In this document: one piece after another, positions 1-16,729 of the stretch
How positions within the stretch are numbered: position 1 is the stretch's first letter
Layout: the number at the start of each line of letters is the position of its first letter
Assembly (NCBI GenBank): GCA_031262985.1
Contig: JAISGQ010000021.1
Location: forward strand, 1 to 64,000
Direction of reading: 5' to 3'
DNA: 64,000 nt
Origin: Oscillospiraceae bacterium
GTDB lineage: Bacteria; Bacillota; Clostridia; Oscillospirales; Acutalibacteraceae
The notes under the pieces: model-generated
Databases searched by the model: none
The model's input: the letters and a program-made list of their open reading frames with translations, nothing else
What the model was told of the DNA's origin: nothing
Made by a program: the position numbers and the translations under genes

Positions 1-3000
1 TCCGGTCTGTTTAAGTATCCTCTCGATACTCCCGCGCCTGCTATGCACAGTTCTCCCGGCATCCCGATTCCGCACAACGTGTTCCCTTGCAGTATGTATA
101 TCTGCGTGTTTGATATTGGCGTACCCACTGTGTTTTTGATTCTGCTCTTCTCAACCTTCAATTGAGCAGACCAAACGGTCGTTTCTGCAGGACCATACAC
201 ATTGTATACTTTTTCCGCGCCGTAATCTATGAGCATATCGCAGATATTTTTCGGCACCGATTCGCCTCCCAACAGCACCGATTTCAGCCTGCTCACGTTT
301 TCTCTGAACAACCTGCTTTCCATATATGACTTAATTCTGGATGGCGTAGTTTGTATTGTGTCGATACCATTCTCGGCGATTATCTCTGCTGCAATATCTC
401 CGAAATTCAAGGCATCCCCGGCGGCAATCACCACTTTTAATCCATTGAGCATGGTTAGTATCGCTTCCGTAACAAATATGTCAAACGATACTGTTGTAAC
501 TGATATTACGGTCGCTTGCTGTGATATAGCGTTTCCAAATACATTAAAGCTGTTCTCTGCACAGTAATTAATGACATTTCGCTGTTCGACCATAACCCCC
601 TTGGGTTTGCCGGTAGTTCCCGATGTGTAAATGAGATATGCCAGACTTGACGCGTCATTAATGATTTCCGGGTTCTTTGGGATACTGTTCTTGTACTCTT
701 CTTCCTTCAGATTGATCACCGGTATCTGACACAACGCATCGTCGAGTTCTGCTCCGCACACTAACACAGCCTTAGGCTTGCAGTCATCCAGCATATATTT
801 AATTCGCTCTTCGGGATACTCCGGATCTATCGGCACATATGCTCCGCCCGCCTTGAGTATTCCGAATATTCCTACTATCATCTCTATGCTGCGCTCGCTT
901 ATGACTGCTACAAAATCATCTGCTCCGACTCCGGTATTCCGCAGCTTCATCCCTACTGTGTTTGCTCTGCCGTTCAGTTCTCTGTATGTAAGGCTTTCGT
1001 CTCCGAACACTACCGCTATGCTTTCCGGATTTGTTCTTACCTGCTCCTCGAATATCTCCGCTATCGTCTTCTCTCTCGGATATTCACACTCCGTATCGTT
1101 GAAGTTGACCAGAATTTGATTTCGTTCTCCTTCTGTTGTACAATTGTATTTTTTTATTTTACACAGACTATTTTCTGTAACTTCACGCAACGAACTAATA
1201 TAACATTCTATAAATCTTTTTATGGTACTTTGCTCAAATAAATCCGAGCAGTACTCGCAATGTACTCTATATTCACTTCCATCAGGAACTATTTCAATGG
1301 CAATATCAAACATTGAAGAATGTGTTCTTATCTTTGAACCTTTGAACGATTCGCCTGCAATTGACAACTTGTTTTCTATATTGTTTTGCAACACAAGTAT
1401 AACGTCAAACAACGGATTTCTACTAGTATCTCTTTTCACACCCAGTCTTTCCACGATAAGTTCAAGGGGGCAATCTTGATTTTCAAACGCACCAAAACAA
1501 GCTGATTTTATTTCTTCAATAAAATCATTAAATGGCTTGTCTTTTTCAGGATATCCACGAATTGGGAGTGTGTTAACAAACATACCCGTAACATTTTCTA
1601 TTTGGCTTATATTCCTTCCCGATACCGGACACCCTATAACTACATCCTCCCTGTTGCCATATCTGCTTAAGATAATCATAAGCGCTGCTAATAAAACCAT
1701 ATACTCCGTTGCATTATATTGCTCGGCAATTTTTTTAATGTTTCCCGCTAGTTGTGTATCTATACTCGAAACAAACAAATCACCATTAAAGCTCTGGATT
1801 TCTGGGCGTTTTTTATCATAGGGAAGCTCAATTGGAGATATCTCGGAATCTAATGTATTCTCCCAAAACAAGAGTTGCTTCTGCCAATCAATAGCGTTAT
1901 ACCATTCACTAAAATCTCGGAATCGTATACAGTCCGGCTCGACGGTTTTGCCTTCATATATATCTGAAAGCTGCTCCATCATTATTCCCACGCTTGTTCC
2001 ATCGCATATGGAGTGATGGAAATCAACAAACAGATATACACCATCTTTGCACCAATTAATCTGCATTCTTGACGTATTCCCGTTTTTTAAATCAAAAGGT
2101 CTTACGAAATCAGAAGATAAATCCTCAAACGACTTATCAAAATCGGTTACAACAGAAAAATCCGGATCGACAGTATCCAATATCATCTGAACCGCTTCAC
2201 CTTCATGGTCGAAAAGAGCAGTACGAAGATTTTCGTTTATCTCAATTAGCTTTCTGTATGCGCATTGCATCTTATTTGCATCAATATTATCACTTAGCTT
2301 GAAGAAAAATGGAGTATTATAAGCTATACAATCATAATCATATTGTTGAATCGTATAAATTCGCTTTTGTGCGGACGGCATCGGATAATATTTCTTTTCC
2401 TCTGCTCTTTTAATACTCTCTGATCTATCGTTTGAAAAAACCAAAGAATCAATATTCCTAACTGTCCTAGCTCTAAAAACATCCTTTACAGTGGGTCTTG
2501 ATCCACATTTTTTCTCCAAATAATTGCAAAGCATAATAGTAAGTAATGAGTTTCCGCCCAACGCAAAAAAATCATCATCTATACCAACACCTTCGCACTT
2601 GAGTATAGTTTCGAACCCTTCGCAAATTAATTTTTGAGAGCTTGTTTCAGGCGCAAAATATTCTTTGCGTCTCTCACTGCTCGCAAGTTGTTCCAGAACT
2701 CCCAAATCAATCTTACCATTAATATTCAGCGGCATTTTTTCAAGGAACATATATTCGCTGGGAATGTAACTATCCGGAAGCTGTTTTCTTAAATTCAAAT
2801 CAATATCTGAAGACGTGATTTCTGTATTAGGAACAATAAACGCAAATATTGACTCTATTCCATTTCCGGTTTTTTTCACCACTTCAGCGGCCGCGACACC
2901 ACCGTTGTTAATAATTGTGTTTTTAATTTCATCCGGTTCTATTCTGACTCCATTTATATTGAACTGTCTGTCTATTCGTCCTAAAATTTCTAACTCGCCT

Positions 3001-4199
3001 TGGTCGTTTGTTCTAACCTTATCCCCCGTACGATAGAACACTTCACCAAATTCAGACAAATATACAAATTTTTGTGTAGTCAATTCTGCTGCACCAATAT
3101 ATCCAATTGAAACAGACGGACCACCTATATATAACTCTCCCGCCTCACCTGTTTTGCATGATTTGTTGTCTTTATTTAAAACTGTAGCCCTTACCCCGCT
3201 AACAGGTTTACCTATTGGCGGATCGCCGACTTCATTTCGGAAACAACAATGAGCTGTTGCTGATCCAGTTGCTTCTGTGGTTCCGTAACAGTTAATGATA
3301 TCAGCATTTGTAATGCCTCTGATTCTTTCAACTAATTTCTCTGCCAATCTTTCGCCAGCAAGCATTAAAACTTTAAAGTTTTGAAATGCTGAGTTTACAT
3401 CGCCAGAAATCAAAACTCCTATTCTCGATGGTGATGTTAATATAGTGTCAGCGTTATATTTCGTTACAAGGCAATTGAATTTTTCGGGATTAGTACGTTC
3501 TTCTTCTGTTGTCAGTATAGATGTGTAACCGAACATTCCCAAAAACAAGTCAAATAAAGAAGCCACAAAAGAGAATGTCGAAACAGAAACAATAACGCTA
3601 CCGTTACCTTTTATCATATTAAATGAATTGATACTGCTTGCAAGAATATTTCTGTGAGTCAAGACTGCACCCTTTGGAAAACCGGTCGTTCCTGAAGTAA
3701 ACATTATAGTTGCCGTGCTATCATTGCTAATATATGGCGGGTCAAAATCAACGATTTTCTCTCGATGGATACTGTTAATGGCAATTGTATGACAATTATT
3801 ACTTTCGCAAATTTCTGCAATCTCCAAATTATCATTTTCTATTACAGCCATTACAGCATTACTTTGATTGAGCATATAACTTATTCTCTTCTTCGGGAGA
3901 CTGGGATCTATGTATACATAAGCAGCTCCTGCCTTGAGCACGCCATACATAGCTGCAACTGTTTCAATACTGCGATCGGAAATAACAGCAATTGTGTCTC
4001 CTGACTTTATTCCCCTTTCAACAAAGGTATATGCAAAATTATCGGAATATACATCAAATTCGGCATAGCTGATTTTCATATTCCTGCAAATAAACAAATC
4101 TTTTTCTGCATACAAAGAAACTGCATCTCGAAAAACCTCAGGAATTGTCTTTTCCAAAATTATGCTATCTAACTGTTTTTTTGTTAACGGATACATCAT
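1..4199 (-). CDS. Non-ribosomal peptide synthetase, A-T-C-A..., 3' end outside window
   Basis: A large multidomain NRPS that assembles a peptide on carrier-protein thioesters. Reading from the start there is an adenylation domain (about residues 1-505; core motifs MFTSGTTGFPKG and NGK), a carrier domain with the phosphopantetheine serine in FFALGGNSLL (about residue 545), a condensation domain with HHSICDG (about residue 730), and a second adenylation domain from about residue 1040 with YIYTSGTTGKPKG-like and YGPAETT motifs, which runs off the left edge. The first A domain has Val where the alpha-amino-binding Asp235 (GrsA numbering) normally sits, so its substrate may not be an ordinary alpha-amino acid. 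The second has pocket residues close to the glycine code. Two ATGs are possible; the outer one (4199) has GGAGGG 7 nt upstream. It is the last visible gene of a minus-strand operon, just after the phosphopantetheinyl transferase that would activate its carrier domain. Confidence 0.95.
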   Translation of the reverse strand, partial: MMYPLTKKQLDSIILEKTIPEVFRDAVSLYAEKDLFICRNMKISYAEFDVYSDNFAYTFVERGIKSGDTIAVISDRSIETVAAMYGVLKAGAAYVYIDPSLPKKRISYMLNQSNAVMAVIENDNLEIAEICESNNCHTIAINSIHREKIVDFDPPYISNDSTATIMFTSGTTGFPKGAVLTHRNILASSINSFNMIKGNGSVIVSVSTFSFVASLFDLFLGMFGYTSILTTEEERTNPEKFNCLVTKYNADTILTSPSRIGVLISGDVNSAFQNFKVLMLAGERLAEKLVERIRGITNADIINCYGTTEATGSATAHCCFRNEVGDPPIGKPVSGVRATVLNKDNKSCKTGEAGELYIGGPSVSIGYIGAAELTTQKFVYLSEFGEVFYRTGDKVRTNDQGELEILGRIDRQFNINGVRIEPDEIKNTIINNGGVAAAEVVKKTGNGIESIFAFIVPNTEITSSDIDLNLRKQLPDSYIPSEYMFLEKMPLNINGKIDLGVLEQLASSERRKEYFAPETSSQKLICEGFETILKCEGVGIDDDFFALGGNSLLTIMLCNYLEKKCGSRPTVKDVFRARTVRNIDSLVFSNDRSESIKRAEEKKYYPMPSAQKRIYTIQQYDYDCIAYNTPFFFKLSDNIDANKMQCAYRKLIEINENLRTALFDHEGEAVQMILDTVDPDFSVVTDFDKSFEDLSSDFVRPFDLKNGNTSRMQINWCKDGVYLFVDFHHSICDGTSVGIMMEQLSDIYEGKTVEPDCIRFRDFSEWYNAIDWQKQLLFWENTLDSEISPIELPYDKKRPEIQSFNGDLFVSSIDTQLAGNIKKIAEQYNATEYMVLLAALMIILSRYGNREDVVIGCPVSGRNISQIENVTGMFVNTLPIRGYPEKDKPFNDFIEEIKSACFGAFENQDCPLELIVERLGVKRDTSRNPLFDVILVLQNNIENKLSIAGESFKGSKIRTHSSMFDIAIEIVPDGSEYRVHCEYCSDLFEQSTIKRFIECYISSLREVTENSLCKIKKYNCTTEGERNQILVNFNDTECEYPREKTIAEIFEEQVRTNPESIAVVFGDESLTYRELNGRANTVGMKLRNTGVGADDFVAVISERSIEMIVGIFGILKAGGAYVPIDPEYPEERIKYMLDDCKPKAVLVCGAELDDALCQIPVINLKEEEYKNSIPKNPEIINDASSLAYLIYTSGTTGKPKGVMVEQRNVINYCAENSFNVFGNAISQQATVISVTTVSFDIFVTEAILTMLNGLKVVIAAGDALNFGDIAAEIIAENGIDTIQTTPSRIKSYMESRLFRENVSRLKSVLLGGESVPKNICDMLIDYGAEKVYNVYGPAETTVWSAQLKVEKSRIKNTVGTPISNTQIYILQGNTLCGIGMPGELCIAGAGVSRGYLNRP

Positions 4200-4217
4200 A
4201 GTATTTCCCTCCAAAAG

Positions 4218-4904
4218 TTATATTATATTCTGCTTGTTGCTCATATTATGTAAGTTTTCAGCAAGTTCATTAAATGTCAATGGGACATGAATAATCTTGC
4301 TATGTGAACACGAGGCAAGCATACCAAAAATCCTTTTTTCTATCTTGAAATTCATATTATACAACTCAAATTCACCTCCATCGCATGACAAGCAGATAAA
4401 CTTTGAAAAATCTATTTGTTTTAAATCACAAAGTATTCCCGTGCCTAAATATTTAGTGTAGCTTTCCTTTAAAGCCCAAAGCAATGTAAATACATCGCTT
4501 TTATTTGTTGCATTTTCCACAGCCAAAAGTTCGTTTGAAGACATAAAATAATTTGCAATCTGTGCATCATAGGATGTAATGTCCTGAATATCAACACCAA
4601 TTGGCATTCCGGATACTCCGCAGGCAACTCCTGTATCGCAATGTGTCAGATTGAAGTGGATATCTCGGTTTTTCTCCAAAATCGGTTTCTTTTCTTTTTG
4701 GTATGTAAATTCCGGCATATGTTTTATTCCAAACTCAACGTATAATGAATATCGCAAAAGACAGAAAGCAAGCAAAGACAATGTTTTATCTTTCTGAAAC
4801 TTTAACTTGTCAATTTTTTTGCGTCTTTCAATTGATGCATAAGAAAGCAAAAGATTGTATGCTTCTGAATTAATTTCATCATTCAAGTTAATATAATATA
4901 GCAT
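4218..4904 (-). CDS. Sfp-type 4'-phosphopantetheinyl transferase
   Basis: Transfers phosphopantetheine from CoA to the serine of carrier domains, here most likely the NRPS carrier and the free-standing ACP of the same operon. The family signatures are visible: a FNLTHC segment, then GVDIQ (Mg-binding Asp) and WALKESYTKYLGTG, the conserved W-x-x-K-E-S-Y-x-K block. About 228 residues is the normal size for the Sfp/Gsp class. The ATG at 4904 has a TAGGTG ribosome site 6 nt upstream and lies one base past the stop of the preceding gene; a GTG at 4913, overlapping that stop, is the alternative. Translational coupling is likely. The NRPS begins about 20 bp downstream. Confidence 0.93.
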   Translation of the reverse strand: MLYYINLNDEINSEAYNLLLSYASIERRKKIDKLKFQKDKTLSLLAFCLLRYSLYVEFGIKHMPEFTYQKEKKPILEKNRDIHFNLTHCDTGVACGVSGMPIGVDIQDITSYDAQIANYFMSSNELLAVENATNKSDVFTLLWALKESYTKYLGTGILCDLKQIDFSKFICLSCDGGEFELYNMNFKIEKRIFGMLASCSHSKIIHVPLTFNELAENLHNMSNKQNII

Positions 4905-4905
4905 A

Positions 4906-6495
4906 TCATGCACCTAAGCTCATGGCAAAAATATGCATAGAATCACAATCAGGAAGAACAACCGATACTACAGGCGCATTAGGAAGCGATATTTTGATGC
5001 AGTAAACATATGCAGTTTCAGTATCGACCACCCTATTGCCTCTCACTACCGTCTTTTGAGTTTTAATAATTGCGTTTTCCGGAATGTCAGCATTCCAGTC
5101 AAGAACACACTCGTTCAAAATAATTCGTCTTTTATGCTGTGTTTTATCGTTACAAATTAATGTGATTTCCTCAATCTGATTGTCAAAATCCGAGCACCCA
5201 AGTATCAGAAGACTTTTGTATGTCCCCTCCGGTATCGGGATTTCATGCCCTAAACACGCAATATTGTCCGCAGAACCGCAATATGTATTCGGAAGAATAA
5301 ATTTATAATTTCCAGATTCCTCCAGAACTCCCGACGGAAAACTTTCACTTTTAAAATATTCATTTTCTCTATTAAAATCAGCACTGCTGATTTCCGACCC
5401 AACTGCAGTGTTATTGCAATAAGTGTCTATATTAATACACAAAAAGTCATCTAAAATAACTTCAGTATCTATTGCCGGCTCAGAGTGCGCATTAGTATCG
5501 GCTTTAACTAATAAATCAATTGTTTCTTTTATTAAGCTTTCTTCTTCTTCTATAATTTGCTCAAGCTTTCTGCTGAAATCCTCAGCTATTCTTTCAATTC
5601 TATTGGAAAATATGCGTTTCAGAAACATTAATCTTGCAGAATTCCATTTTTTAGCAAGAATTATGAATTCTTCATGAAAACCAATTAAACCGACATATTC
5701 ATCACAAACGGAACTTATATAAGAAATAAGTAACGCAAAGCGTACCCTGTTGTGAACGATATCTTTTATTGCTCTATTAATTGCAATATTATCCTGTATC
5801 TCTTCACTAACAACGCTCTCGTTGCCTATATAATTTTTAATATCTTTTTCTATATCAAAATTACAGAGAATCTCATTAGGCATTTTTTTCATAGATACAA
5901 TATAAGAATCGGAAAGAGCAATGCGAAGATTCTCTAAAAGACGCTCGTCCGATCTAAATTTAACGTGCTCACTTTTCTCGACAATAAAATGTTCAATGTA
6001 TCCAAGAAGAAACTCCTGATAAGAAAAATATCCGCTATTTACAAAATAGTACGGATCATCGCATATCAGCACTTCCTTGTCGTCATCGAAGCCCGTAACA
6101 AACATTGTGTGACTTCCGTTATGAATTTCATGATACCGCCAATCCCACGGGCAAAAAAAGCCTGTAACACATACTAAAACAGGCTTGCCGTCAATAATAT
6201 TTTTTTTAATTTCCTCAATTATTTCCTCTGCTTTATATACGTGCAATTTAAGAGAAATACCATAGCAATCTCTAACATTATCTAAAAATTCTGTTTCGAA
6301 AATTATCTTTTCTCCAATAGAAACATTCGATTTTTCGTAATCCATTCGATTTTTAAGTGCGCCATAATAAGTATATTCATAACTTAAACCAAAATATCTG
6401 CAAATTGTAGCAATACAATCATCAAAACAAAAACCAGGTGTTGTGTTATTGTCTATTCTCGGTATCCGAACCAGATCCATATGCAGTTTTTTCAT
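4906..6495 (-). CDS. BtrH-like / C39-fold protein with C-terminal beta domain
   Basis: The N-terminal part resembles the butirosin-biosynthesis BtrH N-terminal family, a cysteine-peptidase-like fold that in butirosin synthesis transfers an acyl chain from a carrier protein to an acceptor. Visible pieces are GFCFDDCIATICRYFG (candidate Cys, about residue 22), SHTMFVTGFDDDKEVLICDDP (His and Asp of the fold, about residues 127-147), and a long helical middle with EEEE near residues 315-320. The C-terminal 150 residues look beta-rich, similar to a galactose-binding-type sandwich. An ACP lies directly upstream and a PPTase and NRPS downstream, which fits a carrier-to-acceptor acyltransferase role; that role is inference. 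The ATG at 6495 was preferred over GTGs at 6504/6507, which sit on top of the AAGGG ribosome site. Confidence 0.7.
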   Translation of the reverse strand: MKKLHMDLVRIPRIDNNTTPGFCFDDCIATICRYFGLSYEYTYYGALKNRMDYEKSNVSIGEKIIFETEFLDNVRDCYGISLKLHVYKAEEIIEEIKKNIIDGKPVLVCVTGFFCPWDWRYHEIHNGSHTMFVTGFDDDKEVLICDDPYYFVNSGYFSYQEFLLGYIEHFIVEKSEHVKFRSDERLLENLRIALSDSYIVSMKKMPNEILCNFDIEKDIKNYIGNESVVSEEIQDNIAINRAIKDIVHNRVRFALLISYISSVCDEYVGLIGFHEEFIILAKKWNSARLMFLKRIFSNRIERIAEDFSRKLEQIIEEEESLIKETIDLLVKADTNAHSEPAIDTEVILDDFLCINIDTYCNNTAVGSEISSADFNRENEYFKSESFPSGVLEESGNYKFILPNTYCGSADNIACLGHEIPIPEGTYKSLLILGCSDFDNQIEEITLICNDKTQHKRRIILNECVLDWNADIPENAIIKTQKTVVRGNRVVDTETAYVYCIKISLPNAPVVSVVLPDCDSMHIFAMSLGA

Positions 6496-6616
6496 AATTG
6501 CCACCACCCTTTCCTGTAAATAATAAATATTATCACTCTACAATAAACCCGTTTCCACGCAACAAGAGATACTATTACACCCAAATGTGCGGAGAATTAA
6601 ACACAGAGAGATTAAT

Positions 6617-6865
6617 TCATTTCACTTTTTTAAGAATATATTTTGAAATATCACTTATTTTATTATAAGATGAAGCATCTAATGCTTCATCATCAAACTC
6701 AAATTCAAACACATCTTCAAGCGCAACTATAAGTTTTATAAAATCCAATGAATTCATGCCTAAATCTGCAAATTCACTATCAGCAGTTATATCCATACCG
6801 TCCCTTGCAAGCTCTAATGTGTTGATTTTCTCAATAATTGTCTCTGTTATAGCTTCCATCATCAT
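6617..6865 (-). CDS. Acyl carrier protein, free-standing
   Basis: A small acidic carrier protein of about 82 residues with the phosphopantetheine attachment motif LGMNSLDF; the serine is around residue 38. It is followed by the typical helix IKLIVALEDVFEFEFDDE of ACPs. Three successive ATGs occur; GGAGG lies 4, 7 or 10 nt before them, so the second (6862) may be the real start. The product would carry an acyl or aminoacyl intermediate as a thioester on the arm installed by the PPTase of the same operon. Its position next to two BtrH-like proteins recalls the BtrI/BtrH pair of butirosin, but a partner for the neighbouring NRPS is equally possible. Confidence 0.93.
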   Translation of the reverse strand: MMMEAITETIIEKINTLELARDGMDITADSEFADLGMNSLDFIKLIVALEDVFEFEFDDEALDASSYNKISDISKYILKKVK

Positions 6866-6879
6866 TTTTCCTCCAAAAT

Positions 6880-7719
6880 CTATGTATTTAAAAAAAGTTT
6901 TGCATCGTCTCTTCTAACTACCATAGGAAACTCGGTCGGCAGTACACCATCGGTTTTAGGTGGGATTTTTAGTTTTAAAGAAACCCCTTTGTCGCCCCTG
7001 CCAATAAGTCTATTGGCAAACCATATTACCACCTCATTTTTACCGGAATGGAAATCAGTATCAATCAATACTTTCCTAAGCAATAGTTTTTCTTCTGATT
7101 TCATATAACCTAAATCTTTATTGTTGCACCAAATTTGCACATCACCACTTGCACCGATACTCAACGCAAGTTTTGTATCATGATGAGAAAAGAACGTAAA
7201 GCGCATTAATACAGCATTGTCGGCAGGATATGCCCGCCGCCTGTTGAGTACTCTTGGTTTTATAACATTTGCACACGTGATAAAGGGAGTAAAGGTAATT
7301 TCTTTATCCGCAGAAAAGTTATGACCCTCTACAAACCTATCAATAGAATAAAATTGAGAAATCTCTCCACAGCGTATATATGGTGAACAATCTTTGTCAT
7401 CCTCTAAATATAACTTAAAATCAGGAAGTTTGTTTCCTTCATCGTCATATATAAAACAATTGCCTTCCGTACAGTATAGTATATAGGAATCTGAAAAATT
7501 TAATAGTGCATTATATGTTGCTAATGTGTATATTCTAACCTCGTTTCCGTCTGTTCGCACACCGGAAACAGGAAATGGCTGATAATCTTCAGTAAAAAAC
7601 TGAACCCCCCCATTCTTGCCTTTTGTATGTAGCCGTCCCTTTACACCGTCCAAAAAAAGAATTATCATAAGACGCTGCCGAGTCCCATACATTGAGGTCT
7701 CAACCCTGCTCAAAACCAT
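6880..7719 (-). CDS. Unknown protein, N-terminus doubtful, possible frameshift
   Basis: Not recognised. The readable frame gives 279 residues, largely beta-strand-like, with a C-terminal part (about residues 165-270) that resembles an accessory jelly-roll domain. It lies 14 bp upstream of the ACP, so it is probably co-transcribed. The start is weak: the ATG at 7719 sits 13 nt after GGAAAGG, and the best-placed ATG (at 7730) opens a six-codon frame. Between 7605 and 7611 there are seven consecutive G residues on the coding strand. Just upstream of this tract another frame is open and protein-like (it includes YDNSFFGRCKGTATYKRQEW) and would join the long frame after a one-step slip. Either the gene is frameshifted, or expression is phase-variable, or the long frame is right as it stands. 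Confidence 0.55.
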   Translation of the reverse strand: MVLSRVETSMYGTRQRLMIILFLDGVKGRLHTKGKNGGVQFFTEDYQPFPVSGVRTDGNEVRIYTLATYNALLNFSDSYILYCTEGNCFIYDDEGNKLPDFKLYLEDDKDCSPYIRCGEISQFYSIDRFVEGHNFSADKEITFTPFITCANVIKPRVLNRRRAYPADNAVLMRFTFFSHHDTKLALSIGASGDVQIWCNNKDLGYMKSEEKLLLRKVLIDTDFHSGKNEVVIWFANRLIGRGDKGVSLKLKIPPKTDGVLPTEFPMVVRRDDAKLFLNT

Positions 7720-7774
7720 AAAAGATTCATGTCCTTTCCGAATTTTATGCCAAAAAAGACATAAAATCTTATTG

Positions 7775-7811
7775 AAAAAAGGGCGGCTTCTAACCAGCTT
7801 ACAAGCCGCCC
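7775..7811 (-). terminator. Intrinsic terminator inside the NRPS island
   Basis: On the minus strand GGGCGGCTT and AAGCCGCCC form a perfect 9-bp stem around a 13-nt loop, followed by six T. It lies after the glycosyltransferase gene at 8029-9339 and before the unknown gene, so it splits the cluster into an upstream transporter/glycosyltransferase unit and a downstream ACP/NRPS unit, or lowers read-through between them. Confidence 0.8.
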
Positions 7812-7837
7812 TTCATAGGATGCAAACTGGTTCTCAA

Positions 7838-7936
7838 GATAAATTTCCCCGCCGCAAGCAGCGGGGTATTTGCAGGATAACGGTTTTATAAGGATTCGCC
7901 CCAAGGGGCGGGGAATCAAACCCTACCTTTTATTGA
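7838..7936. repeat. Two-hairpin repeat, copy 1 (second copy at 16730)
   Basis: About 97 bp nearly identical to 16730-16826. It contains the hairpin CCCCGC-N8-GCGGGG and the hairpin CGCCCC-AA-GGGGCG, joined by a conserved stretch GGTTTTATAAGGATTCGCC. The second copy abuts the end of an IS1595-family transposase remnant, so this copy is probably a solo end or miniature derivative of that element. The differences between the copies are scattered substitutions. Confidence 0.75.
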
Positions 7937-8028
7937 AAATTTTTCAACTTCGCCAAAAAGAACAAACCAGTCTCCTCAGCAAGACAGCTGTTATTACTCC
8001 CAAGGAGCAAGGAACTTAACCTGAAAGA

Positions 8029-9339
8029 TTAAATTTCCTCCACTTGCTTGCTCAGAAGCAACCGTGCTCCATCTTTCCATTTCATTTCATAATAATTTTC
8101 ATCATACTCGTATCTATCGTACCACTGTATTATATGAGTCACGCCAAATATATTTCCGAACAAGAATATTACATCGTTGCTTGCGTTCACATCATAATAA
8201 GACGGCAACTGAATTATATTCTTAGATATCAGCACTTTCCCGCTAATTCTAATCAATTCCTGGAGTACAGAACCAAACATATTTGGCGGAATAAGAGAAT
8301 ATGCTCCCGAAACGAAAACACGCTTAAATCGTCCGTCAACAAAAGGAAGTGCATATCCAAATAATTCCACGCGCTTTCGTTCGCCATGTTCAACATATTC
8401 GACAAGCCCGTTTTCATGTTCCGGAAGGCAAAAATACACTGCGACCTCACCCTCCAGCAAAGTAATTTCCTCATATGTGTTATTCGCCTTTATATATGCG
8501 TAAATTTTGTCGTAGTAGTCTCTCATTCGTGGGTCAGTATTAACTCCCCAGCAACAAATCATTTCGGTTTCCCTGTTTCTGTATTTGTTTAACATATAAT
8601 ACAGATTTTGAAGATTACTATACGCATTTTCAAATTGATTTTTATTGTGAGGACGATGATATGACACGATTTCCGGAACAAATACTATTTTCCCTTTCGG
8701 ATTAAGTCGATAAGCAAACTCCATATCCTCTACGCCCCAACGATGGAAATTCTCGTCAAACCCTCCGATTTCCTCAAACAGTTCTCTTCTTGCCGTTGCA
8801 AACGATGTGAAGTAATTTGGCCAGTTTCTGCTTGTGTCTGCCACAAAATGCCCCCACAAAGATCTGTAATCAGCAACCAATTTATATTCCGACAAATTAG
8901 AAAAATCTTTTTTTACCATACTGTCAAAATCTTCAATACTACAATGGGTAATGAGTTCAAACTGTTCAAGAGTGTGATTGTTTCCATACACTGTACCGTT
9001 TAGACCTGCAATATTCGTGTCTTCGTGTGTCTCTCTTACAATACGCAAATTATCGGGTGCAATAATAACATCACTGTCGATAAAAACAAGTATTTCATTT
9101 ACAGCCTCCCTTGCGGCTCTGTTTCTCACAGCGGAACGATTTCCGTTAGACGAAAACTCTATTATTTTATCAATATGTCCACTGTACGACTTAATTATTT
9201 CCAAAGAATCGTCATCGGAAGAATCGTCAATAACGATAAACTGGTCTTCCTTATCCAGTTGACAAATAATAGAATTAATGCACCATTCGACACTATCCCT
9301 CCTATTTTTATTAATTAACAGAACGCTCAATTTAATCAT
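8029..9339 (-). CDS. GT2 family glycosyltransferase with methyltransferase-like C-terminus
   Basis: A GT-A fold glycosyltransferase. The N-terminus has the family start SVLLINKNR, a nucleotide-binding IDDSSDDDS stretch, the metal-binding DxD as FIDSDV (about residue 91) and the acceptor-side WGVEDMEFAYRL (about residue 220), so it looks catalytically complete. Residues about 290-436 form an extra module shared with the two neighbouring glycosyltransferases; its core ELFGYALPFVDGRFKRVF followed by LQELIRISGKVLIS resembles the second half of a class I methyltransferase but lacks the glycine-rich SAM motif. The ATG has GGAG 9 nt upstream. A terminator lies about 220 bp downstream. Probably modifies the product of the NRPS island; the sugar and acceptor cannot be told. 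Confidence 0.85.
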   Translation of the reverse strand: MIKLSVLLINKNRRDSVEWCINSIICQLDKEDQFIVIDDSSDDDSLEIIKSYSGHIDKIIEFSSNGNRSAVRNRAAREAVNEILVFIDSDVIIAPDNLRIVRETHEDTNIAGLNGTVYGNNHTLEQFELITHCSIEDFDSMVKKDFSNLSEYKLVADYRSLWGHFVADTSRNWPNYFTSFATARRELFEEIGGFDENFHRWGVEDMEFAYRLNPKGKIVFVPEIVSYHRPHNKNQFENAYSNLQNLYYMLNKYRNRETEMICCWGVNTDPRMRDYYDKIYAYIKANNTYEEITLLEGEVAVYFCLPEHENGLVEYVEHGERKRVELFGYALPFVDGRFKRVFVSGAYSLIPPNMFGSVLQELIRISGKVLISKNIIQLPSYYDVNASNDVIFLFGNIFGVTHIIQWYDRYEYDENYYEMKWKDGARLLLSKQVEEI

Positions 9340-9381
9340 TTTGTCATCTCCTTAGCCTAAAATACATTAAATAATGGGGAC

Positions 9382-10317
9382 TTATATTTCACTTGAATTT
9401 TTAATAAAATATCGCCAATAATCATATTCTTTACGCATACACCGCCAAGCCGATCTCTGTGCATCTTCATAATTGGGAACCTTGCGATTCATCCAGCTTT
9501 TCAAAAACTTCATTCTGAGCAAATTCCAGCCACGCTGAGTATCTTCGCACATAACCTTTACGTCTTCGCATAGATGTTTTCCGATTTCGCCTTGCTCATA
9601 TAACATATCCATAAGCATAATATTTGCTTTCTGTCGGTCTACAAATTTCGTTAAATCGTAGCACCTATCCTCGGTATAATCACTTTTATCACACTTCCAA
9701 AAATTGCAATAACTTATTTTAGCAATGTCGGCGCAAATACTCCTGGCATTTGCGCAAACAGTTTCCAGATTAAAAACAAAGGGCTGCCGTTTATCGGAAA
9801 TCACCAGTTCTAAAAGATCGGTATATGTTTGCAAAACAACTGATCTTTTGAAATTTTCTATTGATACCTTATTTTCTCCGTATCCTCTATCGCTATCAGC
9901 AAAACAATACAACTCATCTTTTTCGTCATCGTAGCCGCTGAAGATCCATGAGTGTATTTGATGTGTGTTGTTATAATGAAGGCTCTCCTCGATGAGAGAA
10001 AAGCTGTCAACAGCTACAACTATCAAGCGATTATCGTCTATGTATTTTTTTATCGTTGGAATCAAGTTATTGCTGTCAACTCCTTCAATACGCCTAACCT
10101 CAGAAAAACTTAAGAGAATTTCATATAAACTTTTAAAATATCTTATTTCCAAAGTTTGCCACCAAATACTGTTTCCGAAATTTATGTAATTATATCCATT
10201 GAGAAGCATTAATTTTTTATAGCTATCATCAAGTGAAGTAGCTATTGAAGCCGCCATATTTAAATTGCATTCCAACCAGTAATCTGTATAGGGTGTGTAA
10301 TTTATTTTTTTTATCAC
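9382..10317 (-). CDS. BtrH-like / C39-fold protein, second paralogue
   Basis: A 311-residue protein with the same general plan as the protein at 4906-6495 but without the C-terminal beta domain. A candidate cysteine occurs in YWLECNLNMAASIA near residue 17, and the His/Asp block is HQIHSWIFSGYDDEKDELYC (about residues 119-138), aligning with SHTMFVTGFDDDKEVLICDD of the other protein. The last 120 residues are helical and rich in Trp, Lys and Arg. Start is GTG with AAGGTG upstream. It sits between two glycosyltransferase genes, which suggests that it works on the same intermediate. Transfer of an acyl group from a carrier protein is a guess from BtrH; a proteolytic or purely structural role is possible. 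Confidence 0.6.
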   Translation of the reverse strand: MIKKINYTPYTDYWLECNLNMAASIATSLDDSYKKLMLLNGYNYINFGNSIWWQTLEIRYFKSLYEILLSFSEVRRIEGVDSNNLIPTIKKYIDDNRLIVVAVDSFSLIEESLHYNNTHQIHSWIFSGYDDEKDELYCFADSDRGYGENKVSIENFKRSVVLQTYTDLLELVISDKRQPFVFNLETVCANARSICADIAKISYCNFWKCDKSDYTEDRCYDLTKFVDRQKANIMLMDMLYEQGEIGKHLCEDVKVMCEDTQRGWNLLRMKFLKSWMNRKVPNYEDAQRSAWRCMRKEYDYWRYFIKNSSEI

Positions 10318-10342
10318 AAAATCACCTTGAATTAATTATTTT

Positions 10343-11659
10343 TTAACACAACTGTACTGACTTTTCAAAAACAACAGTAACATCGTCTGACATAGATACG
10401 AGAACATAATCTTCGTTATAATCTTCAAAAATAAAATTCTCTATAAATTGACTAATATAGCAGCAGTTTTTCATAAGGGGATTACCGTTGTAAGTGCCTG
10501 GACAATCGAACGGAGCAGCAATGGTATCAATTGTTTTTTTTGAAACCAACACTACCTCTGCATATCTAAGTGCTTCTTGAAGAACAATTGCAAGTAAAAT
10601 ATCAGAAAGCATACTGTATGCACCGGAAATATACACCTTTGATATTGACTTATCGGCAAACGGAACGGCAAATCCAAACAACTCAATATTTTCAACAACG
10701 TCATTTTTCATTACTCTAATAATTCCGTTTGGATGTTTCAGATCCGGAAAATGCAAATCCGCCTCAGAATTGCCGATATCTGCAAACTCACTATTATTAT
10801 TTTCAGCCATGTATTTGCATAGATATCTGAAATTATAAATTTTCCATGCTTCTATATCCTGCTTAAATGCACAGAAAATCTCTAAATCAAAACACCTGTG
10901 CTTATTTAATATAAAGTACATATTGGGAATATCACTTTTTGCTTGACGAAACATATTTTTTCCGTGCGGATGATGAAACGCCAAAAGTTCCTTTAGATAT
11001 ACAACTTTCCCTTTTTTGCTTAATCTATATCCTAATTCTATATCCTCGCTTCCCCATGTTGTGAAAAATTCATCAAATCCACCAAGTTTACGGTAAATCG
11101 ATGTCCTTACTGCATTGTAACAGCCGAAATAGTATCGCCAACTGCCTACTAAATCTTGGTCTGGATTATTGGCATAAAAATACCTGTAATCCAAAAATTC
11201 AGGATAATCGTAAAGTATGTCAGGATTTTCAATAAATTTTTCGTAAAAGCGACTTGGACTTAATCCTGAAAGCAACTCAAATTGAGCTTCATCATGACCG
11301 TTCCCAAACACCGTGCCTGACGCACCTACAATCTCTTTATCATCGAAAAGCTTTCTTATTATATTTATATTGCCCGAACATATTGTTGTATCTGAATCTA
11401 CAAATAAGAGCAACGGATTATTTACCGACTCAACCGCCATATTTCTAACGTATGCAAGATTCCCTTTAGAATTACACGTAATCAATGCACTTATTTTGTC
11501 TATGTACTTTGAAATTACTTCCACAGAATCATCATCCGAATTATCGTCCACAACAAAAAACTCGTCGCCATCTTCGAGCTGATTGATTATGGCTTTCAAG
11601 CTGTGTTCGATGCAAAAGCCTCTGTTTTTATTAATCATAACAACACTTACCGCGTTCAT
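10343..11659 (-). CDS. GT2 family glycosyltransferase with methyltransferase-like C-terminus
   Basis: Paralogue of the enzyme at 8029-9339. It keeps SVVMINKNRG at the N-terminus, VVDDNSDDDS, the DxD motif as FVDSDTTI and the WGSEDIELGYRL motif, so it should be active. The shared C-terminal module (about residues 300-438) contains IELFGFAVPFADKSISKVYI and LQEALRYAEVVLVSKK. The ATG at 11659 has GGAGGGG 6 nt upstream; an earlier in-frame codon at 11674 would overlap that ribosome site. The start lies 15 bp from the end of the preceding glycosyltransferase gene, so the two are translationally close. Duplication from a common GT ancestor within the cluster is likely. Confidence 0.85.
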   Translation of the reverse strand: MNAVSVVMINKNRGFCIEHSLKAIINQLEDGDEFFVVDDNSDDDSVEVISKYIDKISALITCNSKGNLAYVRNMAVESVNNPLLLFVDSDTTICSGNINIIRKLFDDKEIVGASGTVFGNGHDEAQFELLSGLSPSRFYEKFIENPDILYDYPEFLDYRYFYANNPDQDLVGSWRYYFGCYNAVRTSIYRKLGGFDEFFTTWGSEDIELGYRLSKKGKVVYLKELLAFHHPHGKNMFRQAKSDIPNMYFILNKHRCFDLEIFCAFKQDIEAWKIYNFRYLCKYMAENNNSEFADIGNSEADLHFPDLKHPNGIIRVMKNDVVENIELFGFAVPFADKSISKVYISGAYSMLSDILLAIVLQEALRYAEVVLVSKKTIDTIAAPFDCPGTYNGNPLMKNCCYISQFIENFIFEDYNEDYVLVSMSDDVTVVFEKSVQLC

Positions 11660-11674
11660 ATAAGACCCCTCCAA

Positions 11675-12931
11675 TCAGCTCTTTATAAAATCTGACGATA
11701 TATTTTTGTTGTATTTTACACTGCATCCTTCTTTCCAAACAACCAATATGAAATCTCCGTTGCGACTAAAATCAAAATAGTTAACTGTACTTACTATCGC
11801 GTGGTTTTCATTAAATTCCCACGGAATTTCAAATTTGCCGATATTTGAATGTATCCTTGCCTCTGTTTGTGCTGTGACCAAAGCTACCGTTTCTGCTATG
11901 CGTAAGCATTCCTGAAGCAACGCAGCCAAAATTCCTTCCGGCAAAAAACAGTATGAGTACGATATGACTGCTCTCTTAAAGTGACGGTTGGAAAACGGAA
12001 GCATAAACCCAAACAGTTCAATTCCTTTTTCCTTGCCATCTTCGACGTACCTGCACCAACCGTTCGGATGAGAATTATCAGGAAGCGATATGTAGATTTC
12101 GTTGTTAAAGAGTGTGAAACTGTTCAATTGCGCATCTTTGTTGTCGCAAATATATTTGCAAAGTTTTTTCATATTTTCTAATGCCTCAGGAACATTCACA
12201 GATGGAAAACTCAAAGATATTTCCATTTCTAAGCTATGCTTCTGATTCAAAAGACGATATTGATCTGAAAAAACCGGAGTTAAGTCGCCCATGAACATTT
12301 TTCTGCGTTTATCATAAAATATATATGTTTCGTTTAAAGCAATGCACTTCCAATGAGTTTTTGATCTTATAAAGAAATCATTGAATGAAGCTTTTGCTGT
12401 CTTGTATGTATCGTCAAGTCCGCCAAGCGAGACAAACGAAGCCTTTCGTATTGCACACTGTCTGGAAATGTTGAAAATACTGTTATACAGACCGCTATAA
12501 TTATCTTCTCCAAAATTCCTAATATTAAAATCCGGTACATATTTAGCAAAAATACCAAAATCTTCATACGCCAACGAAATAATATCTTCAAATGAAACTC
12601 CGATAATCTGCTTCATTCGACTCAGAGAAGACATAAAAATAATGTATCCGCTGACAGCAATTGCGATCGTACTATCTTCAAAACTTTTTCTTATATTATC
12701 CATATAATCAGAAGACGGGAAACATCCGGAATCTAAAAACACGAGAATATCGCCGGTTGACTTTGATATAATAGCATTAATAATGCCAATATACTCGACC
12801 TCGTTCTTATATTCATCCTTCTGTATATACAAAATCTCGTCATCCTGCAATAACCCTCTTCGCACATATTTTTCGCTTATAGCAGAGGCGTTTTCTTTAT
12901 CGAGAACATGATAAATTACACTTATTTTCAA
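11675..12931 (-). CDS. Degenerate GT2-like protein with the same C-terminal module
   Basis: Third member of the glycosyltransferase set, 418 residues, but the catalytic signatures are damaged. The DxD motif reads FLDSGCF instead of DSD, and the WGxED motif is replaced by FNDFFIRSKTHWKC. The C-terminal module is well kept: DNSHPNGWCRYVEDG, IELFGFMLPFSNRHFKRA and LLQECLRIAETVALV. This suggests a pseudoenzyme whose C-terminal module still matters, perhaps as a partner of one of the active glycosyltransferases; an alternative is a diverged enzyme using another metal ligand. It starts with TTG behind GAGAGGAG. It follows the ABC transporter genes by 15 bp. Confidence 0.75.
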   Translation of the reverse strand: MKISVIYHVLDKENASAISEKYVRRGLLQDDEILYIQKDEYKNEVEYIGIINAIISKSTGDILVFLDSGCFPSSDYMDNIRKSFEDSTIAIAVSGYIIFMSSLSRMKQIIGVSFEDIISLAYEDFGIFAKYVPDFNIRNFGEDNYSGLYNSIFNISRQCAIRKASFVSLGGLDDTYKTAKASFNDFFIRSKTHWKCIALNETYIFYDKRRKMFMGDLTPVFSDQYRLLNQKHSLEMEISLSFPSVNVPEALENMKKLCKYICDNKDAQLNSFTLFNNEIYISLPDNSHPNGWCRYVEDGKEKGIELFGFMLPFSNRHFKRAVISYSYCFLPEGILAALLQECLRIAETVALVTAQTEARIHSNIGKFEIPWEFNENHAIVSTVNYFDFSRNGDFILVVWKEGCSVKYNKNISSDFIKS

Positions 12932-12945
12932 TATAATACTCCTCT

Positions 12946-14736
12946 CTAATTGTAAAATTGCGCTTGATGGCTAAACATATCAGCGTATTCTCCGCCCAAG
13001 GATATAAGTGAATCGTGATTTCCGGATTCGCATATTTCTCCGTTTCTGAAAACTAATATTCGGTCGGCAAAACGTGTGCTTGATAGCCTGTGAGACACAT
13101 AAATAGCAGTTTTATCTCCTATTAGGCTGTTAAAATTTGAGTAAATTTCATTTTCTGCTATCGGGTCAAGTGCCGCTGTTGGCTCATCAAGAATTATTAT
13201 AGGAGCATCTTTGTATAATGCTCTTGCAATCGCTATCTTCTGCGCTTCGCCGCCGGAAGGTTCTATCCCGTGCTCATCAAATATTTTATATATTGTGGTA
13301 GATACACCTTCGGGAAGCTTCTCGAACTTTTTGTCAAGTCCAACTATCTCAGAAACCTCGGCAATACGAGAGTATTCATCCTCGCTTATGTCATGCTTTG
13401 TTGCAATGTTTTCGGCTATACTGTACGCAAATAGCATAAAGTCTTGAAATACTACGGAAAAAAGCTTATAACATTCCTCAACACTGTAGTAACGGATATC
13501 AATTCCGTCAATCAATATATTTCCGCTTTCCGGCTCATACATTCTGCAAAGCAATTTGCATAATGTTGTCTTACCCGCCCCGTTGCGACCGACAATTGCA
13601 ACCCGTTCTCCCGGCTTGATTAACAGAGAAACATTTTTAAGCGCATACACCTTCGACCTTGGATATTTAAAAGTTACATTTTTAAATTGTATTGTGTGTT
13701 TATCTGATATTATGTGTTCACGTTTTCCATCGCTCTCTAATGACGGCAACTCCATAAAGTTTATATAATCCTTCAAAAAGTTTCGTTGCGCTCTACTTTG
13801 CATCACTTTTTCAATACATCCGTTTATGCTGGTATCAAGAGTCAGCGCGGAGGTAATAAGCATAGTAAAGTCACCGTAACTAATAACTTTATTTATTAAG
13901 AGAATACCTAAATAAAAGAATCCGAATATTTGGGACAACGATTTGAATGCATCGCTGAAAAGAACTTTATTTTTCCTGTTTTCGGCCTGAACCTTCATTC
14001 CTTTTTCGATACATTCATTTTCATAGTTGCTGACCTTGTCCATAATGAGTTGGTTGCCGTTATACATTTTGAGATCCTTTGCATACTTTTGCGTGGTGAG
14101 GTGAGTAAAATAATATAAAAATTTTCGCTGAATAACAGATATATTTCTCTGTGCATCAACATTAATTTCGTTAATTTTGTGAATTATAACCGCTCTCAAA
14201 AATGCGGAAATCAAACAGACTATCAAAAGCGGCGGAGCATAATAGAAAATTATTGCAATTACACCTAACGCAGATACAATATCCGATATGATTCCGCATA
14301 TATTAACCATATATGCTTGTACGCCACCTGAACTATCCTCAATTCCACTTTTCGCCTTTTGCATTTTGTTCAAAATATCAGGATCTTCCAAATTAAAGTA
14401 TGGCATATTCATAACTTTTTTGCAGATAAGCCGATTAAAATATCTGTTGTACGAATCACCATATTTTTCGCACAATTGCTGGCACATTGCAATAATGTAA
14501 TTAAAAACAAATGCGGCAACACAGTATGATGCCACATATATCACAAGTGTGCGTAAATCTCTTCTGCCTGAAAGTTCTTCAACAATAAGCTTTATCGAAA
14601 ATATAGACAAAAACGGCAACACAGCAGCAACTATAGTTTTTACAAACAGCAAAAAAACCATTTGAGGAGTATGAAGAAGTGCTTTTGCGATAAGGTGAAA
14701 ATGCACTACCTTTGGTTTATGCGTGCTATTGCCCAT
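12946..14736 (-). CDS. ABC exporter half-transporter, TMD-NBD
   Basis: A fused permease-ATPase of the exporter class. Six membrane helices fill roughly residues 20-310; the nucleotide-binding domain has Walker A GRNGAGKTT, the signature PSGGEAQK (in place of LSGGQ), Walker B IIILDEPTAALD and the H-loop VSHRLSS, all intact. The ATG at 14736 is chosen because GGAGGTG lies 6 nt upstream; it overlaps the end of the companion transporter gene by 11 bp. The tight overlap and the similar size indicate that the two proteins form a heterodimer, exporting the cluster's product or providing self-resistance. A lipid or peptide cargo cannot be decided from sequence. Confidence 0.92.
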   Translation of the reverse strand: MGNSTHKPKVVHFHLIAKALLHTPQMVFLLFVKTIVAAVLPFLSIFSIKLIVEELSGRRDLRTLVIYVASYCVAAFVFNYIIAMCQQLCEKYGDSYNRYFNRLICKKVMNMPYFNLEDPDILNKMQKAKSGIEDSSGGVQAYMVNICGIISDIVSALGVIAIIFYYAPPLLIVCLISAFLRAVIIHKINEINVDAQRNISVIQRKFLYYFTHLTTQKYAKDLKMYNGNQLIMDKVSNYENECIEKGMKVQAENRKNKVLFSDAFKSLSQIFGFFYLGILLINKVISYGDFTMLITSALTLDTSINGCIEKVMQSRAQRNFLKDYINFMELPSLESDGKREHIISDKHTIQFKNVTFKYPRSKVYALKNVSLLIKPGERVAIVGRNGAGKTTLCKLLCRMYEPESGNILIDGIDIRYYSVEECYKLFSVVFQDFMLFAYSIAENIATKHDISEDEYSRIAEVSEIVGLDKKFEKLPEGVSTTIYKIFDEHGIEPSGGEAQKIAIARALYKDAPIIILDEPTAALDPIAENEIYSNFNSLIGDKTAIYVSHRLSSTRFADRILVFRNGEICESGNHDSLISLGGEYADMFSHQAQFYN

Positions 14737-16573
14737 CCTTAACACCTCCGGATTTGTAGTATTGAGCCTGTACTTCATATAATTCACTATATCTGCCTTT
14801 TTTGAGAAGCAGTTCGTCATGTGTACCGTATTCTACCAATCTGCCATTTTCAAACATAGCAACCTTATCACAAAAACGAGTAGAAGAAAGTCTGTGGGAT
14901 ATGTATATTACTGTTTTCCCTTGAACCAGCCTGTCAAAATTCATATATTGATTATACTCCGCCACCGCGTCAAGCGCGGCTGTCGGCTCATCCATGATTA
15001 CTATAGGTACATTTTTGTACAACGCCCTAGCAAACGCAAGCTTTTGTCTTTCTCCTCCCGAAAAATCAACGCCCTCACTATCAATCAATTTAAGCATGGG
15101 TGTATGAAGCCCATATTTAAGAGAGGTTAGTTTATGTGCAAGACCGGAATCAATTATACACTGTTTGACACGTTCCTCATCCGCCTCATTTTTATCGCAC
15201 ATTGCTACATTTTCAAGAAATGACAGAGCGAATATCACAACATCTTGAAACGCCGGAGCTATTATAGAATAATACTCTTCTTTTTCAATTTGTTCGATAT
15301 CAACTCCATTAAGAAATATCTTTCCTTCAGTAGGTTTGTATAACCTTAAAAGAAGCTTTATAAGAGTTGTTTTACCTGCGCCATTAAGTCCTATAATTGC
15401 CAAGCGTTCTCCTGCGGAGATTGTAAGATTAACATTTTTCAGCGCATATTCCTCGCGCCCCGGATATTTAAATGATAAATTTGACACTCCGAATCTAAAT
15501 TTATCTGTTTTGGGCAAATACTTTTTCCCTATCATACCGCGCTCCTCAGGCAAATCAACAAATGCCCTGTAGTCGTTAATCTGACGAGAATACATATTCA
15601 TATTTACCCTACAGTCAAAAACTGCATTTATACCTGCAATAAAAGCATATGTAGATTGATAGTACAACGCAAAATCGGAGATGAGCATATCTTTTGATAG
15701 TGTGCTATAAACCAAATAGCCATAAAGAAATATATCTCCCGCCATAACTAAAAATTGGTTTAAAATTGCAAATATCAACCAGTTTCTCTTTGATTTCGCA
15801 ATGAGAGCATGGGCTTCATCACTGACTTTTTCGTGCTTGCCTTTTAACCACCGATTCATATTATACGCACGAATATCTTTTGCATATTCGAAATCAGTTG
15901 TCGATTTATAAATATAGTCAACTCTGCGCCAATATGGAGACATCCTGTCCCATACGAATTTTTTATCGTTCTTTTTTGTTTTATCCATCAAAAACAACCG
16001 AATAACACAAATAAATGACATGACCACCACTAAATATATGTTCAAGTTTGACAATATTAAAAATGATGCTATTGTACTTACAAAACAAGCCAAAATTTTT
16101 AAAATTTCGGCAATCATACCTGACACTCCGCTTGCGCCGGAGGAATCCGCTTCAAGTGCCTTGCGCTGCAAATCAAGAATTTCCGGAGACTCAAACTTAT
16201 CATAACTGAGATCAAAGAATTTATTTATTCTCATCTTTTTGAAGTGTACTGCAATATATTCAAAACGCCACTGCATACCATTGTTAATCAGCGCTGAAAT
16301 GCCAATCATCAAAAGAATAGTTGTACCTAAAATCAAAAGCGTCGAAATAAGCTCATCCATATCACCGCCACGCTCAACAATTGATATAATCAGCTTGGAT
16401 GCAACAGCAGTCGCAAGCGGCAACACGCCCACCATCAAAGAAAGAATCGGAATCAAAAAACTCATTGATGGCAGTCTTTTGCATGAAAATCGCAAAACAT
16501 ACATCATATTATTGAAAAGAGAATGATTTTTCGGCCATCCTTGTTTGCCTTTTCCGGTCTGATTGCCTTGCAT
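14726..16573 (-). CDS. ABC exporter half-transporter, TMD-NBD (first gene of operon)
   Basis: Companion of the preceding transporter, 615 residues: a soluble N-terminal stretch, about six membrane helices to residue 310, then an ATPase with GLNGAGKTT, FSGGERQK, IVIMDEPTAALD and ISHRLSS. Neither half shows the degenerate site seen in asymmetric exporters, since both retain the catalytic Glu and His. It is the first gene of the minus-strand island and lies about 50 bp downstream of a good sigma-A promoter (16622-16650). No C39 protease domain is attached, so it is not a bacteriocin-processing ABC of the usual type. Confidence 0.92.
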   Translation of the reverse strand: MQGNQTGKGKQGWPKNHSLFNNMMYVLRFSCKRLPSMSFLIPILSLMVGVLPLATAVASKLIISIVERGGDMDELISTLLILGTTILLMIGISALINNGMQWRFEYIAVHFKKMRINKFFDLSYDKFESPEILDLQRKALEADSSGASGVSGMIAEILKILACFVSTIASFLILSNLNIYLVVVMSFICVIRLFLMDKTKKNDKKFVWDRMSPYWRRVDYIYKSTTDFEYAKDIRAYNMNRWLKGKHEKVSDEAHALIAKSKRNWLIFAILNQFLVMAGDIFLYGYLVYSTLSKDMLISDFALYYQSTYAFIAGINAVFDCRVNMNMYSRQINDYRAFVDLPEERGMIGKKYLPKTDKFRFGVSNLSFKYPGREEYALKNVNLTISAGERLAIIGLNGAGKTTLIKLLLRLYKPTEGKIFLNGVDIEQIEKEEYYSIIAPAFQDVVIFALSFLENVAMCDKNEADEERVKQCIIDSGLAHKLTSLKYGLHTPMLKLIDSEGVDFSGGERQKLAFARALYKNVPIVIMDEPTAALDAVAEYNQYMNFDRLVQGKTVIYISHRLSSTRFCDKVAMFENGRLVEYGTHDELLLKKGRYSELYEVQAQYYKSGGVKDGQ

Positions 16574-16621
16574 AAGTTCACTCCAATATATTTTATTATG
16601 TCGTTCTTTGCTTCTCGTTTA

Positions 16622-16650: not shown

Positions 16651-16729
16651 AACAATTTGTGTCAATTTAACAAGAAAACACAAGTTCCATTGAGAACAAA
16701 AACAATTAATACCAACCACTGATATAATA

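Follow-up and report, generated by a model that had tools for sequence, protein, structure and literature searches.

Glycosyltransferases (GTs) that no longer catalyze sugar transfer and serve as subunits are already known in a few systems. In the plant xylan synthase, the catalytic residues of the GT-family protein IRX9 are dispensable and its role is held to be structural, according to the available text of PMC4132061, and EryCII stabilizes and activates EryCIII, as given in the available text of PMC3391682. Here, we describe a locus from an Oscillospiraceae bacterium, located in the first 64,000 nt of contig JAISGQ010000021.1 (assembly GCA_031262985.1; this whole stretch is referred to as the window, and its base 1 is base 1 of the contig). 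At 8029–12931, on the minus strand, four open reading frames (ORFs) encode three paralogous proteins, here named GT1, GT2 and GT3, and the C39/BtrH-like protein C39b, the gene of which sits between those of GT1 and GT2. The three paralogues end in a common C-terminal module, and GT3, which has lost its catalytic motifs, is in our judgment probably maintained as a non-catalytic subunit.

GT1 and GT2 share with K4 chondroitin synthase, the glycocin S-glycosyltransferases ThuS/SunS and TarP/TarS a GT-A domain with the DDxS, DxD and WGxED motifs. They differ from these enzymes, all of the GT2 family, in that the matches stop near residue 240 and that the module matched none of them; several such GT2-family enzymes carry C-terminal extensions for oligomerization. 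The likeness to EryCIII–EryCII, as far as the available text of that work describes the pair, lies in an antibiotic-type cluster where a degenerate enzyme homologue serves a GT. However, EryCII is a P450 homologue, whereas in our case the presumed helper and the enzymes are module-sharing paralogues. Moreover, EryCIII is not a GT-A enzyme. IRX9, as portrayed in the available portion of its source, resembles GT3 as read here in being a non-catalytic structural GT subunit. It differs in its family (GT43) and in its plant host. To our knowledge, no methyltransferase-like module exists for IRX9. With the terms used, a literature search on pseudo-glycosyltransferase partners found no publication.

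Results

Loss of catalytic motifs in GT3

By their Pfam matches and motifs, GT1 and GT2 are ordinary GT2-family GT-A glycosyltransferases. They scored 66.4 and 57.8 bits, respectively, with Glycos_transf_2 (PF00535; cut-off, 23.3) and 34.9 and 34.5 bits with Glyco_transf_7C, and both carry DSD and WGVED or WGSED. Their best sequence match in the PDB was K4 chondroitin synthase, aligned at positions 4–229 of the joint profile. When a whole-protein AF2 model of GT1 (mean predicted local distance difference test score, pLDDT, of 53.5; poor in most of residues 106–252 and in 374–407) was compared with GT-A structures, ThuS, WrtF, TarP and K4CP occupied the top rows, with Z scores of 11–12 (maximum 11.8) over 143–172 residues. 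These matches were confined to residues 1–240 of GT1, which places the C-terminal part outside the GT-A fold and speaks against a possibility considered in an earlier, sequence-based note on this DNA, namely that the module is part of that fold.

Full-length identity to GT1 was 34% for GT2 and 24% for GT3. In GT3, DSD is replaced by DSG, AKASF stands at the position of WGVED/WGSED, and the DDxSDD and VRN blocks are also gone. No Pfam GT model scored above its cut-off with GT3, and no sequence in the PDB matched it at E ≤ 1. Taken as a whole, these losses support the view that GT3 is non-catalytic, as the earlier note had proposed when it pointed to the DSG triplet and the missing WGxED in a protein that keeps its module.

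A second cluster with the same losses

Counterparts of all eleven cluster genes were found on one contig (L069) of G945, a genome from another genus of the same family. Identity to the window was 29% for GT3, 34% for the phosphopantetheinyl transferase, and 41% and 28% for the C39/BtrH-like pair; further values are compiled in Table 1. The nonribosomal peptide synthetase (NRPS) and the carrier protein also have counterparts on L069, the NRPS being likewise truncated by the contig end, and the counterpart of the 279-aa protein (L069:9232–10058) is split over two overlapping frames. While the counterparts of GT1 and GT2 carry DGD or DSD together with WGVED or WGSED, that of GT3 has DSR in place of DxD and VGGTV in place of WGxED. 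Missing from both GT3 proteins are the nucleotide-site DD, WGxED and, in DxD, the second Asp; the first Asp of that motif is still present in both, as is the GG of GGFD.

The two clusters differ in G+C content (0.37 in the window and 0.50 in L069) and in gene order: on L069, the minus strand carries GT3 and GT2, with the carrier gene upstream of them, and the plus strand carries the remainder. In each genome, GT3 immediately precedes GT2. On L069, the stop codon of GT3 overlaps the start of GT2 (ATGA, 4 nt), and in the window the probable ATG of GT2, at 11659 (the annotated ORF starts with TTG), follows the GT3 stop by 15 nt, with a Shine-Dalgarno-like GGAGGGG between them. The kept order and close spacing fit a GT3–GT2 pair, without amounting to proof of one.

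Age of the loss and unequal divergence of the two domains

GT3 and its counterpart formed a clade with bootstrap values of 100 for the GT domain, 84 for the module and 100 for both combined. This grouping, together with the same losses in both proteins, indicates that the motifs were lost before the two genera split. Open frames of 418 codons in GT3 and 409 in the counterpart were preserved, and the differences in G+C content and gene order suggest that the dead gene has stayed open over a long time.

Divergence was unevenly spread. The four intact enzymes have 65 invariant sites in common in the GT domain; GT3 keeps 15 of these and its counterpart 18, 40 being lost in both. At 19 module sites defined in the same way, the corresponding values were 12, 16 and 2 (Fisher test of kept versus not kept, GT domain against module: GT3, P = 0.0018; counterpart, P = 2e-5). 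On a fixed tree, the stem leading to the two GT3 proteins had a length of 1.76 for the GT domain, compared with 0.47 for the module. Similarly, when only the window proteins were used, the ratio of the GT3 branch to the GT1 and GT2 branches combined was 2.3 (1.35–3.66) in the GT domain and 0.37 (0.08–0.83) in the module (2000 bootstraps). These data support a divergence of GT3 that is concentrated in the GT domain and does not especially affect the module.

Extent, motifs and distribution of the module

The module comprises about 185 residues (251–436 in GT1, 257–443 in GT2 and 229–418 in GT3) rather than the 140 or so first estimated, and those of GT2 and GT3 are 26% and 25% identical to that of GT1. 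An ELFG(Y/F)-x-LPF signature had been described for all three paralogues; it holds for GT1 (ELFGYALPF) and GT3 (ELFGFMLPF), and GT2 has VPF instead of LPF (ELFGFAVPF). The second signature, an LQE block, is present with small corrections, reading LQELIRIS, LQEALRYA and LQECLRIA in GT1, GT2 and GT3, respectively. Five polar residues (H308, E325, Q360, E361 and R364) are invariant across the six modules of the two clusters.

None of the three window modules matched a Pfam family at E ≤ 10, and with all six only a chance-level Pfam match (E = 0.18) and two NCBIfam matches (E = 0.087, and E = 0.1 to the model of the arsenite methyltransferase ArsM) appeared, each in a single member. Sequence matches in the PDB were not meaningful (best E values, 0.19 and 0.13). 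A model of the module alone (predicted template modelling score, pTM, 0.64; pLDDT 64.6; poor in its residues 125–156) began with two helices, followed by a strand, a hairpin and another strand; two further helices, then a strand, a helix and three strands completed it. Together, these results support a separate domain that has been kept in GT3.

A hidden Markov model (HMM) of the module recovered GT1, GT2 and GT3 and, among 397 other genomes of the family, strongly only the three G945 proteins (E values from 7e-46 to 1e-32), a pattern that chance resemblance does not explain. The module was thus present in 2 of 398 genomes of the family sample (own, G000, and G945), in 1 of 391 of the class sample and in 1 of 398 of the phylum sample, the own genome in both cases. 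In the genus of G945, one of four members had it and the other three gave no match; in a family sample at 93% completeness (142 genomes), only G945 matched. A full-length profile run against 295 genomes of the order found the own genome only at E ≤ 1e-25, and so did GT1 as single query at E ≤ 1e-15 in 60 genomes including the own. A further match in genome G784 (E = 3.4e-4) was partial and interrupted by in-frame stops, and was rejected, since the ORF there scored just E = 0.018. The genome samples overlap, and as 1999 of about 98,000 genomes were searched in total, more such clusters may exist elsewhere.

A pattern scan of genome contigs for module homologues gave 278 stretches and 3 loci, and the module HMM, run over all frames of 12 loci, reached a best E value of 0.019. 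With regard to mobile elements, tblastn of GT1 against plasmids returned 12 records, none spanning 80% of the query; among the ten matches listed, coverage fell within residues 1–262, and the two inspected were GT2-family proteins that measure about 305 aa and lack the module. The module alone had no match at E ≤ 1 in plasmids and phages, a viral scan with GT1 gave one stretch and no relative, and nothing in a viral structure library matched at E ≤ 0.001.

Methyltransferase likeness of the module

The earlier note had likened the module to the second half of a class I methyltransferase lacking the glycine motif that binds S-adenosylmethionine (SAM). In hhalign, a profile of the six modules scored 23.0 against 20 class I methyltransferases (those longer than 190 aa among 30 loci from relatives, of which a few rows look off-frame), compared with 21.4 for the best of 200 column shuffles, all of which it exceeded, and 16.8 for the reversed profile (single-comparison P = 0.01). 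The decoy control was small, with two unrelated families that scored 17.1 and 12.0. With three modules, the result was marginal (19.1, best of 100 shuffles 18.9), and both runs shared one register; a score that rises at the same register as modules are added is the behavior expected of a true but faint relation. The aligned part is a 43-column segment (module columns 80–124) in which LPF, the next strand and the L-x-E-x-x-R helix face methyltransferase elements that we take to be beta4-alphaD-beta5. When hhalign was run in global mode, a mere 3 columns were aligned, too few to count as an alignment.

Foldseek with the module model found no match at E ≤ 0.001; its rows included the methyltransferases 2p8j, 2gs9 and 1vlm, with 38–43 columns at 1.0–2.4 Å (2p8j: 38 columns, 1.0 Å, E = 0.31). 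The best match of VIA-align was METTL6 (Z = 4.8, root mean square deviation of 4.5 Å, 135 aligned residues), with S-adenosylhomocysteine hydrolases within 1 Z, and no structural Z score for the module reached 5. In none of the six modules was a Pfam methyltransferase model matched at E ≤ 10 or a GxGxG-like glycine-rich SAM loop (motif I) found, and in view of this missing loop neither SAM binding nor methylation is expected. The module shares with class I SAM-dependent methyltransferases (PF08241-like) the succession of LPF, a strand, a helix with E-x-x-R and a strand, but differs from them in that it has neither the glycine-rich loop nor the PGG turn and in the hairpin that precedes beta4 in the models. 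These observations faintly suggest a Rossmann-like remnant or look-alike, which should not bind SAM or methylate.

Genes of the cluster and their context

Positions of the cluster genes and of the three modules are listed in Table 1. The visible part of the NRPS resembles the aureusimine synthetase model, with a score far under the cut-off. A search for its remainder found one condensation domain in the own genome, and no piece reaching the last 450 positions of the NF047350 profile was found in the own genome or in G945; an aureusimine-like product released by a reductase is accordingly no more than a possibility. In an alignment with their counterparts, both C39/BtrH_N-like proteins retain the Cys, His and Asp positions; the C39a counterpart on L069 combines BtrH_N with DUF4872.

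Table 1. Cluster genes and C-terminal modules in the window, with the evidence for each assignment.
Feature	Coordinates	Strand	Evidence
NRPS (A-PCP-C-A seen)	3..4214	-	Pfam/NCBIfam matches; truncated by contig end
Phosphopantetheinyl transferase, AusB-like	4218..4913	-	Pfam ACPS, 49.7 bits; NF047349, 71.9 bits, under its cut-off of 225
C39a, C39/BtrH_N-like, 533 aa	4906..6507	-	Peptidase_C39_2, E 2.4e-7; BtrH_N, E 8.7e-6
Free-standing carrier protein, 82 aa	6617..6865	-	PP-binding, 42.5 bits; L069 counterpart, E 2.4e-13
279-aa protein, no family	6880..7719	-	No Pfam/NCBIfam match; 34% to L069 pieces
GT1, intact GT-A glycosyltransferase with C-terminal module, 436 aa	8029..9339	-	Pfam; L069 counterpart, 51%
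Module of GT1 (residues 251-436)	8032..8589	-	No Pfam match at E ≤ 10; module-alone model, pTM 0.64
C39b, C39/BtrH_N-like	9382..10317	-	Weak: Peptidase_C39_2, E 5.9e-4, and BtrH_N, E 0.066; counterpart alignment
GT2, intact GT-A glycosyltransferase	10343..11674	-	Pfam; L069 counterpart, 42%
Module of GT2 (residues 257-443, numbering of the TTG-start ORF)	10346..10906	-	Comparison with the other two modules
GT3, degenerate GT-A protein, 418 aa	11675..12931	-	Motif losses; all Pfam GT models under cut-off
Module of GT3 (residues 229-418), kept	11678..12247	-	Comparison with the other modules
ABC (ATP-binding cassette) transporter (membrane + ATPase)	12946..14820	-	Pfam; L069 counterpart, 48%
ABC transporter, second half-transporter	14726..16573	-	Pfam; L069 counterpart, 45%

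The G+C content is 0.367 in the cluster (1–16600) and 0.509 in the remainder of the window (16900–64000), and a tRNA-Gln (ctg) gene at 17215–17288 adjoins the cluster end. On this basis, the cluster is probably an acquired island. An intergenic repeat is present at 7839–7941, inside the cluster, and at 16727–16830, just beside it (93% identity over 104 bases).

C39a was found in 7 of 291 genomes of the class (own included), and the module was in none of the six C39a stretches from the six other genomes. At three loci of other class genomes (L030, L031 and L032), C39/BtrH_N-like genes lie near apparent AMP-binding/NRPS, carrier and ABC-transporter genes, the ORFs having been judged by eye. Our literature searches found no publication that joins BtrH with a glycosyltransferase and a nonribosomal peptide, nor one that pairs any two of DUF4872, BtrH_N and nonribosomal.

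Discussion

The motif loss in GT3 is kept in two lineages, and its gene is linked to that of an intact GT, a combination that, at the level of sequence, marks a candidate non-catalytic GT partner. We consider it probable, with some reserve, that GT3 is a maintained non-catalytic subunit, most likely acting with GT2 and perhaps also with GT1, and that the module is an assembly or docking domain. In such a scenario, GT3 would have arisen by duplication of a GT-plus-module protein, would have lost nucleotide-sugar binding and catalysis before the host genera parted, and would have been retained as a scaffold or activator that stabilizes GT2 or steers it to its substrate, the module, as the part that GT3 kept, serving assembly or docking. 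By building or attaching a sugar, GT1 and GT2 may decorate either the final product of the NRPS/BtrH-type cluster or an intermediate still bound to a carrier, and the ABC transporters would export the product. Given that BtrH is a carrier-protein:aminoglycoside acyltransferase (available text of PMC10318531) and that the cluster holds NRPS, carrier and C39/BtrH_N-like genes, it is reasonable to guess that an acyl or peptidyl group passes from the carrier to an acceptor that bears a sugar. On the whole, the interpretation put forward in the earlier note is partly supported: the paralogues, their shared module and the missing SAM motif were borne out, and the idea of a maintained partner gained from the module-bearing second cluster, whose GT3 is dead in the same motifs, while the methyltransferase label remains weak.

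In this proposal, complex formation, the role of the module and the nature of the acceptor are inferred, and several observations weigh against it. The module evolves fast: between counterparts, its identity is 40% (GT1) and 34% (GT2), when the corresponding GT domains reach 59% and 46%, which is unlike what would be expected of a tight shared interface, and the module tree fails to recover GT2 and its counterpart as sisters (support 51). Furthermore, the alignment of the GT3 GT domain is uncertain in places owing to erosion, and the known clusters are two, in assemblies that are 79% and 82% complete.

Among the alternatives, it is possible, though not what we would expect, that the module recognizes an acceptor or carrier protein and that GT3 is an adaptor bringing a carrier-bound peptide or sugar acceptor to GT1, GT2 or the C39/BtrH-like acyltransferases. 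Genes for an NRPS and a free carrier protein are indeed present in the cluster, as are those of the two C39/BtrH_N-like proteins that retain Cys, His and Asp. On L069, moreover, the carrier gene closely precedes GT3 and shares its strand, and the five invariant polar residues could make a binding site. However, no carrier-binding domain was among the listed sequence or structure matches of the module, and three paralogues would need the same binding partner. In a bolder proposal, which we regard as unlikely, the module would be an undescribed domain that assembles a three-part GT (two active subunits and one dead scaffold) on carrier-bound intermediates with the BtrH-like acyltransferases, using a truncated methyltransferase-like fold purely for docking. 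If this is true, sugar transfer and nonribosomal peptide assembly would be coupled in a new way.

That both GT3 proteins retain the first DxD aspartate and the glycine pair of GGFD might speak for catalysis with changed chemistry, such as that of a metal-independent transferase. We find this quite improbable, as the two proteins share the loss of 40 of the 65 invariant sites, among them the DD of the nucleotide site, the second DxD aspartate and three residues (W, E and D) of WGxED. Hardly credible is a dying copy with a decayed methyltransferase domain devoid of any role: the faint class I likeness without a SAM motif would suit it, but the frames are open in two genera with the same losses, the module is kept, and the order and close spacing with GT2 are conserved.

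If GT3 is indeed a maintained subunit, it would be a dead GT that is paralogous to the enzymes it presumably serves, has a private domain in common with them and has persisted in two genera within an NRPS-type cluster. Such a protein would offer a clean natural experiment, making it testable what a GT must keep in order to act as a partner after losing catalysis. The cluster itself, which combines an NRPS and a carrier protein with two BtrH-like proteins, three GTs and two ABC half-transporters, is of a little-charted kind.

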